The notes under the pieces were generated by a model, which was given only the letters and a program-made list of their open reading frames with translations, made no database searches and was not told where the DNA came from. The translations under genes and the position numbers were made by a program. This document shows positions 37,011 to 50,645 of a DNA stretch of 64,000 nt, piece by piece. The stretch is from a virus. Location: the IMG/VR virus record IMGVR_UViG_3300002052_000001, positions 1 to 64,000 of that record; one strand, 5' to 3'. Positions within the stretch are counted from its first letter, which is position 1. Every line of letters begins with the position of its first letter.

Positions 37011-39047
37011 GTGGAGGGGCTCATCCTTTCGCCGACCGCGATGGCGGAGATGGTGCGCGACGGCGAAAAGAAGCTCATCGTCAAAAGTAAGCCTTTTGAT
37101 GTCGCGGGCAAGGAGTTCGTGCTGCTCAGTAGCCGGAAGGCGTACGGTACAGTCCGGCTGGGCAAGCAGGAAAAGCTCACCGTTAAGCAGTTTGAGCGTC
37201 GCCGGGGCGAGCACCGTATCAGCGATGAGCAGCGCCAGCAGTGGTGGCCAAAGGACCGGGAGCTGTGGGCGTGGCCGGTGAAGGTGCTCAAGAGGTACGA
37301 TCCGCCCAGGGCGACAAATGCTCCGACCGGCCCGCAGGTGGTGGTACGATCGGTGACGGTGAAAGAGCATCTGACAGAGGCCGTTCCGAAGATCAGCAGT
37401 GACCCGCTGACTGACTCCTATCTCAAGGCTATCGCCAAGGAGATCGAGCAGACGGCCGTGGCGGTGTCGGTTACCGGGGCTGCTTCCTGGAAGCTCAAAC
37501 AGATGGCTGCGCTTGCAGAGCCCGTCGCCGATGCCCTGGAGGGTGAGCGGCCGGAGGTGAGTAAGCTCCGGTCCACTTTGAAGCGGCTTGCCCATAATGT
37601 TTGGACCTCTCCCACCGGGGCGAGGAAGGCGTCGGCCGCGTTGCGGGCGCTGGCCGGGGGTCTTCGGGATGCTCGGAAGGTGGCAGCTAAGGGTTTGGGT
37701 AAAGCAGACCCATTTTTCAAGGCTGCTGGATTTGAGGTCGTGAACACGTGGGGATACACCAGCTCCGAGGTCCGGGACGTAACGCGAGCGCTGGAGGGGG
37801 CCTCGAAGGTGCTCACCGGTGTGGGGCTGTTGACGGCGGCGGGCGGCCTGGTGGAGCTGAATCCGGCCAAGGTAAAAGGCACTGCTTTTGTTCAGTATGA
37901 CCCGACGGCGGACCTGTTCATTTTCGATGCCCAGCGGTCCGGTTCGGCCAACATCGAAAACGTGCTCAGGGCGCTCGCAGAACGCCTGTGGCTTCAGGAG
38001 TTCGGTAAGGGGGACAGGGAGACCTGGGGGAATGGAAAGGGGCAGGAGGGCTTTTCTCGGGCCTTCGCGGGGCAATTGTTGGGGCAGCGCCTGGATTCGG
38101 ATGTGGCCGCTCGGCTCCAGGTGACCGTGGGCAAGCTGGCGGCCAGATGGCCGGAGGCCAAGGGTATTCGAGCGTCACGGGAGCTGTCGCCGCTGGACAG
38201 GATTTTGCAGGAAATCAAGTACGATATTGGCACCCGGCGTAAACGCAAGACGGGGGTGCATGTTAAAATCGCCGATCCGAGTAAATGGCGGAAGGTGAAG
38301 GGAACCTTTGCTCAAGATGTTGTGGAAGATGCTGAGGCCCAGGCAAAGAAGAGGAAGGAGCTGGCTAGTACCATTCGGAGGATGGCGCGGTATGTGCAGC
38401 AGGGATTGATTGCGCCGTTGGGCGTTGGTGACCATATCCGGGCTGCGAAGGAGATGAGGGCCAAGCACGCCAAGCGGCAGCAGGGATTTATGAGGGACCT
38501 GGGAAGACTGGCGGGTCCCCGGTACAAGGTAACGGGTCGGCTGAAGGACCTCGATAGCATGTTGGGTAAGATCGCCCCGCCAGATGCAAAGAACGTCAAA
38601 TACAAGGCAGCGAGTGCCCTGGGAGATGTGACCGGAACCAGGATCATCGCCGGTTCCATCGGAGAAGTGTATGATATTATTGAGAGTATCAAAGGGAAGG
38701 GGGCGCGATACGGTATAAGGATCAAGAACATTGATGACAAGGTGCGTAATCCCCAGGGCGCGGTGAAGTATCGGAGCATCCACCTGGACATCGTGGACAA
38801 GGACGGTGAGGTGAAGGAACTCCAAATCCGCACGCGCCGCCAGGATATGGCGGCCGATTGGTCCCACGATCAGTACAAGCCCTATACTCGGGAGCAGGTT
38901 CGGGCTCTGGAGAGGCACAAAAACAGGATTATCGATTACGCTGCTAGGGTGTCGGACTACTTTTATTCCCAGGATAAGGGGGAAGAAGTGGGTGCTGCGC
39001 CCCCTTGTCCGAGAGTGGTGAGTCGTTACTTCGGGTGCATAACTTGA
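37011..39047 (+). CDS. ASCH-like N-domain fused to RelA/SpoT-like nucleotidyltransferase domain
   Basis: 678 residues from GTG 37011. Residues about 8-100 (EMVRDGEKKLIVKSKPF, FVLLSSRKAYGTVRLG, HRISDEQRQQWWPKDRELWAWPV) match a small ASCH/PUA-like module that I recall at the start of many virion-linked phage proteins. The C-terminal 150 residues match a RelA/SpoT synthetase-type domain: GRLKDLDSMLGKI, DVTGTRIIAGSIGEVYDII, KYRSIHLDI and KELQIRTRRQDMAADWSHD. The Tyr-Arg-Ser-Ile-His and ExQIRT pairs are the guanine-stacking and catalytic landmarks of that family. The middle is helical. Alarmone synthesis, nucleotide-transfer toxicity or a degenerate fold are all possible. Confidence 0.68.
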   Translation: MEGLILSPTAMAEMVRDGEKKLIVKSKPFDVAGKEFVLLSSRKAYGTVRLGKQEKLTVKQFERRRGEHRISDEQRQQWWPKDRELWAWPVKVLKRYDPPRATNAPTGPQVVVRSVTVKEHLTEAVPKISSDPLTDSYLKAIAKEIEQTAVAVSVTGAASWKLKQMAALAEPVADALEGERPEVSKLRSTLKRLAHNVWTSPTGARKASAALRALAGGLRDARKVAAKGLGKADPFFKAAGFEVVNTWGYTSSEVRDVTRALEGASKVLTGVGLLTAAGGLVELNPAKVKGTAFVQYDPTADLFIFDAQRSGSANIENVLRALAERLWLQEFGKGDRETWGNGKGQEGFSRAFAGQLLGQRLDSDVAARLQVTVGKLAARWPEAKGIRASRELSPLDRILQEIKYDIGTRRKRKTGVHVKIADPSKWRKVKGTFAQDVVEDAEAQAKKRKELASTIRRMARYVQQGLIAPLGVGDHIRAAKEMRAKHAKRQQGFMRDLGRLAGPRYKVTGRLKDLDSMLGKIAPPDAKNVKYKAASALGDVTGTRIIAGSIGEVYDIIESIKGKGARYGIRIKNIDDKVRNPQGAVKYRSIHLDIVDKDGEVKELQIRTRRQDMAADWSHDQYKPYTREQVRALERHKNRIIDYAARVSDYFYSQDKGEEVGAAPPCPRVVSRYFGCIT

Positions 39048-49411: not shown

Positions 49412-49760
49412 GATCAAGGGATTCAGGTTCAAAGTGGAGGTCCGGCTTCAGATTACGAGGTCGGAACTGGACCACATGATCGAGTGCTCCCAGGCACACT
49501 ACGACTGGAAGTGCAAGGCGGCGTCGCAGCAGGGCGGTTTTCTCTACGGCTGGCGGAATATGTTTGAGCTGGACGAGCCGGGTATCAAAACCTTAGAAGT
49601 CCAGGCCAACTGGGATACGGTGGACACGCTGTGCAAGATGTTGGAAGGCGAACAGTACATGCGCCACCTTGCGCCCGAGAAGAGCCTTTATTTTTCCATG
49701 AGGCGCGTTCTGGTTCGGATGCGCGAGGAGTCGGAGCGGGTCAATGCCGAAAAAGAGTAG
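49404..49760 (+). CDS. hypothetical helical protein
   Basis: 118 residues from ATG 49404, overlapping the previous stop by eight bases. Starts with a strand (FRFKVEVRLQITRSEL) then helices (LDHMIECSQAHYDWKCKAA). The remaining region has a Trp/Tyr-rich patch. Unknown family. The start FRFKVEVRL resembles the strand YRFKVEVKL in the 45306 gene, perhaps a shared small fold. Confidence 0.6.
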   Translation: MPEIKGFRFKVEVRLQITRSELDHMIECSQAHYDWKCKAASQQGGFLYGWRNMFELDEPGIKTLEVQANWDTVDTLCKMLEGEQYMRHLAPEKSLYFSMRRVLVRMREESERVNAEKE

Positions 49761-50310
49761 AGAATCAGCCGAGCCCGAGCTGTTCAAGGACCACGACGGG
49801 GCCTACAAGGTCCGGTGGCCGGACGGAACGGTGGTCAAGGTGCCGGAGCCGTCGAAGCCGCCACCTCCTCCTCGTATGTCTCAGCGGGAGATGCTTGGGG
49901 ATAAGTGGCCAACTGACGTTCATCCTGTCACCGGGGAACCATTTGTGAGGTGTGAGAGCGTGGAGATGGATCGGGAAACACTCGATTATCGTTGTCCGCC
50001 GCCGGAAAGACCCACGCGGGAGATTTGGGAATGGGATGATGATGCCGAGACCCCTACCTACGTCCGGGAGATGACCGATGAGGAATACGAAGCGGCGCTG
50101 AAGAAGTACGAGGAAAGGTGCAAAGAGTGGAATAGGACCGGCGGTGAGATACGTCTGGCAGGGCACGAAACGATCACCGGCCGGTTTGTTACAGCGAGCG
50201 GGGCCTGGGCGGAAGGCGTTCTGGTCGGGGAGAACGAGTGGCATTGGACTGAGCCGCCAAGTGTGGCGCTGGGCCATGTTTCACGTGAAACATCTGGAGG
50301 TGGTCGATGA
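49744..50310 (+). CDS. hypothetical protein containing a perfect parS site in its coding sequence
   Basis: 188 residues from ATG 49744 overlapping the previous stop. It has a strand DHDGAYKVRWPDGTVVKVP, a Pro-rich hinge, and helical DDEAETP-type segments (here DDDAETPTYVREMTDEEYEAALKKYEERCKEW). The C-terminus G-HVSRETSGGGR is the translation of the parS sequence. The palindrome is read as H-V-S-R-E-T. Product function unknown; the DNA-level signal is of greater interest than the peptide. Confidence 0.62.
   Translation: MPKKSRESAEPELFKDHDGAYKVRWPDGTVVKVPEPSKPPPPPRMSQREMLGDKWPTDVHPVTGEPFVRCESVEMDRETLDYRCPPPERPTREIWEWDDDAETPTYVREMTDEEYEAALKKYEERCKEWNRTGGEIRLAGHETITGRFVTASGAWAEGVLVGENEWHWTEPPSVALGHVSRETSGGGR
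50277..50292. promoter_or_regulatory. perfect bacterial parS-type site
   Basis: TGTTTCACGTGAAACA, identical to the chromosomal ParB-binding consensus known from Bacillus and many other bacteria; flanking A/T extends it to an 18-bp perfect inverted repeat (50276-50293). It lies near the 3' end of the gene at 49744. No parA or parB gene is in this window, so host ParB or a phage ParB outside the window would be needed. Confidence 0.75.
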
Positions 50311-50645
50311 GGGTGACGTTGGGTTGCTGTCATGGCTGTCGGCAGGTCGAACCGTTCCAGGCCACCGATCTTGGAAGGCTGTGTCCTTTTGATTTGGAAA
50401 AAAAACGGTGGGCCGAAATACAAGCCGAAACTCTGGACGGCAAGCACAAGACCGAGGCGGTGTTCGTGCATAACGATCCAGGATGTGTCGCCCTGGCCAC
50501 CGAATGGTTCATCCTGGAGATGCTCAGAAAGGCAGGGCCGGATATTAAGGAATTAAATCTCAAGACCAGATTTCCGAAGCCGCTGGAGTACATTGTGTTC
50601 CGGCTTCAGCCCGGCAGTTTTGTACCAAAGGAGTGCGACCGATGA
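50307..50645 (+). CDS. hypothetical protein
   Basis: 112 residues; ATGA overlap with previous gene. N-terminal CCHGCRQVEPF suggests a small Cys-rich site. The rest has a mixed strand-helix pattern (EAVFVHNDPGCVALATEWFILEMLRKAG) and ends in a strand (LEYIVFRLQPG). No known family. Confidence 0.6.
   Translation: MRVTLGCCHGCRQVEPFQATDLGRLCPFDLEKKRWAEIQAETLDGKHKTEAVFVHNDPGCVALATEWFILEMLRKAGPDIKELNLKTRFPKPLEYIVFRLQPGSFVPKECDR

Follow-up and report, generated by a model that had tools for sequence, protein, structure and literature searches.

The locus examined here raises the question of what a perfect copy of the chromosomal parS word is doing in a phage genome, and by which protein it is read. 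In bacteria, ParB recognises parS, is loaded as a CTP clamp and spreads, and it acts in both ParA-driven segregation and SMC loading (PMC12704722, PMC10197239), and the parS consensus is recognised across ParB orthologues (PMC7383237). The window, a stretch of 64,000 bases, is the first part of a virus record of 191,623 bases that may itself be a fragment. Annotation covered the window and four further stretches (133 kb in total), and the remainder of the record was covered by searches. The genes identified include those for a contractile-tail sheath, baseplate and tape-measure, together with a replication set comprising a DnaB-type helicase, a primase, a UvsX-like recombinase and others; no match to a tyrosine integrase was obtained in the record. 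About 37 tRNA genes, covering most amino acids, are arranged in two arrays (record 130.3-134.7 kb and 138.2-140.6 kb; L127:12348-16670 and L128:2187-4577). A 678-aa protein (window 37011-39047) presents a RelA/SpoT domain match well above the Pfam cut-off, and could possibly be a (p)ppGpp enzyme or a toxin-like synthetase.

The sequence-only reading of the window had reported the parS word TGTTTCACGTGAAACA within an 18-bp perfect palindrome, and word, palindrome and positions were all recovered exactly as described. The features of this neighbourhood are the following:

50276..50293, no strand: 18-bp perfect palindrome ATGTTTCACGTGAAACAT, containing TGTTTCACGTGAAACA at 50277-50292
50277..50292, no strand: site 1, parS-type TGTTTCACGTGAAACA, near the 3' end of the ORF at 49744-50310
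49744..50310, + strand: 188-aa ORF, overlapping site 1 with its C-terminal codons (..GHVSRETSGGGR and stop)
50296..50300, + strand: Shine-Dalgarno-like GGAGG, reached three bases after the palindrome ends and probably the ribosome-binding site for the gene that follows
50307..50645, + strand: next ORF, of 112 aa, with a start that overlaps the previous stop (ATGA) and no family match

The description of the site as lying inside a phage gene holds in that it overlaps the 188-aa ORF, but the overlap is marginal, with the site 11 codons from the end of the ORF and ahead of the next ribosome-binding site. This ORF returned no Pfam or PHROG match, and no close relative was found in IMG/VR either for it or for the helicase gene adjoining site 5 (see below). 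The estimate that a chance match would be very unlikely, given previously as 1.5e-5, is borne out by base composition, which predicts 6.8e-6 perfect 16-mers per 64 kb.

A check for further parS sites in the rest of the genome, which the same reading had proposed, returned four more copies of the 14-bp core GTTTCACGTGAAAC in the whole record. The five cores start at 50278, 83876, 126799, 140582 and 165446, at successive intervals of 34, 43, 14 and 25 kb. As chromosome-type parS sites, three of them match the full 16-mer TGTTTCACGTGAAACA exactly and the other two have one outer base changed, with C for the outer T (G at the other end). The four additional sites are located as follows:

Site 2, core at 83876: 2 bases past a stop codon, overlapping the next predicted start
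Site 3, core at 126799: within an ORF whose Rep_1-like match falls short of the Pfam cut-off
Site 4, core at 140582: a few bases past the final tRNA gene of an array
Site 5, core at 165446: shares one base with the start codon of a helicase gene (165460)

Base composition predicts 4.5e-4 copies of GTTTCACGTGAAAC in the record, against the five observed, and Markov models of orders 1-5 predict 3-5e-4 in the 133 kb read. The record contains no copy of the core with one mismatch and a single copy with two (35270). Five exact 14-mers where some 0.0004 were expected, with no one-mismatch copies beside them, suggest that these sites have been kept rather than arising at random. The explanation that they reflect chance, or selection acting only at the protein level on the HVSRET peptide, could draw on the in-frame VSRET encoded at both site 1 and site 3, but with this excess of copies and three of the five sites in non-coding sequence we consider it so improbable as to be negligible. 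The flanks of the five sites are unrelated to one another, indicating that their spread did not involve the copying of a longer element; a mobile repeat was ruled out on the same grounds. No good parS-type site was detected in the first 50 kb of the record, where the tail genes lie. The sites of this phage are dispersed, whereas many chromosomes and some other viral records have them in clusters.

The same pattern was observed well beyond this record. In IMG/VR, the exact 16-mer TGTTTCACGTGAAACA was found at at least 120 loci, versus 11 in the whole collection for a control palindrome (TTTGTCACGTGACAAA) of the same composition and with the same centre, a single control word being used for each collection. 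Among 50 parS-bearing IMG/VR records picked for length or multiple sites, none presented an HTH_ParB match and 20 carried two or more cores, clustered in some cases. The 18-mer ATGTTTCACGTGAAACAT was present in 198 of 50,697 phage records (with some matches over 17 bases), or in 153 under a stricter query, versus none for a same-composition control palindrome; as with the other database counts, many of these records are near relatives and hence not independent. The phages bearing it include those of Microbacterium, Gordonia, Arthrobacter, Bacillus, Lactobacillus, Clavibacter, Butyrivibrio, Rhodococcus, Chryseobacterium and Ruegeria, as well as micro- and inoviruses, while the records labelled 'Listeria phage LM' are fragments of doubtful nature, some of which may be host DNA. 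The ParB cut-off was reached in none of 20 phage records examined, one Microbacterium phage showing a sub-threshold ParB-like match. In 7.3 Gb of plasmid sequence, three times the amount of phage DNA, 18 records contained the 18-mer. In 28 Gb of E. coli sequence there were none, in keeping with the description of this species as possessing neither a native ParB nor parS (PMC7383237). Three filamentous phages, the bajarodino inoviruses (L199, L218 and L219), carry five to six perfect parS sites per ~6 kb, mostly at gene junctions.

The location of the sites bears on the possibility that they act as regulatory operators, with ParB bound near gene starts or ends silencing or timing the adjoining phage genes. 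Three of the five sites fall between called genes, site 5 lies on the helicase start codon and site 1 just before a ribosome-binding site, and the gene-junction placement in inoviruses would fit the same role. Against it, one site lies inside an ORF (site 3, in the Rep-like ORF; site 1 is at an ORF end), the neighbouring genes are unrelated, and the control palindrome also falls mostly outside ORFs. The bias towards intergenic positions is therefore not specific, location by itself constitutes weak evidence, and we regard a regulatory operator as unlikely.

The statement that the window holds no parA or parB appears to extend to the whole record. In the record, which may be a fragment, no match was found to AAA_31, the model used for ParA, or to the HTH_ParB DNA-binding domain. 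The sole ParB-like protein has 116 aa (record 148863-149213) and matches ParB_N below the cut-off, with no HTH, which makes it an unlikely reader of parS. Single-domain ParB-fold proteins have been described as common in phages (PMC12704722). With no HTH match in the record, a phage-encoded ParB acting on these sites was ruled out. The record thus shows neither the HTH-bearing ParB nor the AAA_31 ParA of a self-encoded phage ParABS system, and instead presents several parS sites unaccompanied by parAB, as in phi29 and SGI1.

A phage protein unrelated to the host ParB could still share the recognition word and read the sites. The existence of a second dispersed palindrome in this genome (GGCAGTCGACTGCC), presumably serving a phage protein, speaks for such a reader, as might the ParB_N-like protein were it not for its missing HTH match. 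The word is, however, the parS consensus across ParB orthologues (PMC7383237) and occurs in widely different phage families, so that we deem a reader of this kind very unlikely. Given the five sites, the absence of HTH_ParB and ParA matches in the record and the recurrence of this pattern among numerous unrelated phages, the interpretation of site 1 as a real parS site read by the host ParB appears well supported.

The second palindrome, GGCAGTCGACTGCC, is present in 20 exact copies and four one-mismatch copies in the 191.6 kb, or about one per 8 kb. Six of the exact copies lie in the window (9493, 19906, 36206, 46660, 52445 and 61541) and 14 elsewhere in the record; they fall both within and between genes, and also in a tRNA array. 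No bacterial genome rich in copies was identified; the 43 matches obtained were single and spread over scattered genomes, and the word was hence discarded as a means of identifying the host. It may be recognised by a phage regulator, or by a packaging or condensing protein. The Rep-like ORF that holds site 3 (record ~126.2-127.4 kb; L127:8215-9438) also contains a copy of GGCAGTCGACTGCC, 150 bp from the parS site. This ORF shows a weak match to Rep_1 (rolling-circle initiator) and HUH- and YxxK-like motifs; a plasmid origin for it was considered and rejected, as no plasmid match was found. A distant relative (L138, IMGVR_UViG_3300006802_000085) has a repeated palindrome of its own, TACCCGGGTA, with five copies in 22 kb.

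Comparison among related phages, of the kind that the sequence-only reading had put forward as a refuting test, provides a further line of evidence. Among isolated Ruegeria phages, DSS3P8 carries three sites, and two sites are shared between DSS3P8/V10 and MAL1, with the core identical at 14 of 14 positions and the 300-bp flanks 38-60% identical, in a comparison that was anchored on the sites. Some tens of adjoining bases on either side can also be aligned, and the Ruegeria sites therefore look homologous; their conservation favours selection acting on the site. In the Gordonia phages PatrickStar (L254) and Woes (L255), the cores form part of longer inverted repeats, and the outer arms of these vary from one site to the next. 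Three distant relatives of the phage studied here, identified through DnaB/helicase searches (47-63% protein identity; records of 41-81 kb), contain no sites, indicating that these are not a lineage-wide feature and that gain or loss occurred within the group.

A search of the open-access literature returned no paper on phages using host ParB via parS, and the closest systems known offer partial parallels. The genome of phi29 contains four near-parS copies, TGTTTCACGTGGAACA, in 19 kb, and its entry into the B. subtilis spore reportedly involves Spo0J/ParB. As here, several dispersed parS-like sites are found in a phage without a ParB of its own, and the directing of phi29 DNA is said to involve the host protein. 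The present sites, in contrast, are perfect or changed only at an outer base and lie in a genome ten times larger that is known from its sequence alone, and the phi29 host is a sporulating B. subtilis whereas the host of this phage is not known to sporulate. Other phages and plasmids, such as P1, N15 and the actinobacteriophages with parABS, encode their own ParA and ParB acting on private sites; they likewise partition through ParB and a centromere site, but no such proteins were found here. In bacterial chromosomes the same 16-bp word mostly clusters near the origin (PMC10197239), whereas here it is dispersed over the viral genome.

SGI1 provides a second precedent. Its parS mimics bind the ParB of IncC plasmids, stabilising SGI1 and destabilising the plasmid (PMC10954446). 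Like this phage, SGI1 is a mobile element lacking par genes that carries parS mimics for the ParB of another replicon, with its own stability being raised, but it exploits a plasmid ParB rather than that of the chromosome and is an integrative element, not a phage. This case is also relevant to the notion of the sites as decoys, whereby multiplying phage DNA would titrate host ParB and disturb segregation, SMC loading or cell division to the benefit of the phage. Replication would multiply the five sites of each genome, and the destabilisation of the IncC plasmid by extra parS copies is probably due to ParB titration (PMC10954446). A decoy would nonetheless be expected to present dense arrays, whereas the sites here are 14-43 kb apart, and single-site phages of 50 kb or more are common. 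A decoy function therefore appears improbable. Among the three options put forward by the sequence-only reading, which also included the directing of phage DNA to a cell location, maintenance through the host ParABS is the best and has precedents in phi29 and SGI1, while the decoy is less likely.

We hence propose, as a probable though by no means certain reading of the sequence evidence, that the parS sites load host ParB, by which unintegrated phage DNA would be partitioned, positioned or loaded with condensin. Host ParB would bind each of the five sites, close as a CTP-loaded clamp and spread onto the adjoining phage DNA. In view of the properties of ParB, a phage genome with five such sites should be treated as a host-like segregating replicon; once marked in this manner, it could be positioned and partitioned by host ParA and have host SMC condensin loaded onto it. 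The likeliest benefit would be that unintegrated phage DNA is kept or placed in an orderly manner when division precedes lysis, as in pseudolysogeny, a carrier state or an episome, comparable to what Spo0J reportedly does for phi29 in sporulating B. subtilis. The binding of ParB, the partition, the loading of SMC and any benefit to this phage are all inferred. Arguing against this reading are the dispersed rather than clustered arrangement of the sites and their absence from the distant relatives; no genes for lysogeny were identified, and the presence of GGCAGTCGACTGCC means that dispersed palindromes in this phage may serve something else.

The phage thus probably borrows the segregation machinery of its host, and many unrelated phages seem to do likewise. 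This kind of hijack is already known, from what is reported of phi29 and Spo0J and from SGI1 and IncC plasmids; a phage this large with five dispersed sites looks like a variation on it. More tentatively, and with the balance of our judgement slightly against it, the use of stolen parS sites and host ParB could be a general phage strategy, extending over large and small tailed phages, filamentous phages and micro-phages without ParB. It would then act during infection itself, in placing the phage DNA, loading condensin onto it or protecting it, and not be confined to sporulation and lysogeny. If working parS sites are common across phage families, the host segregation machinery would be a common phage target. 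The keeping and placing of unintegrated phage DNA in dividing cells would then be directly testable in Ruegeria, Bacillus and Gordonia phage pairs, and the finding would bear on how foreign DNA is treated by ParB-loaded condensin.
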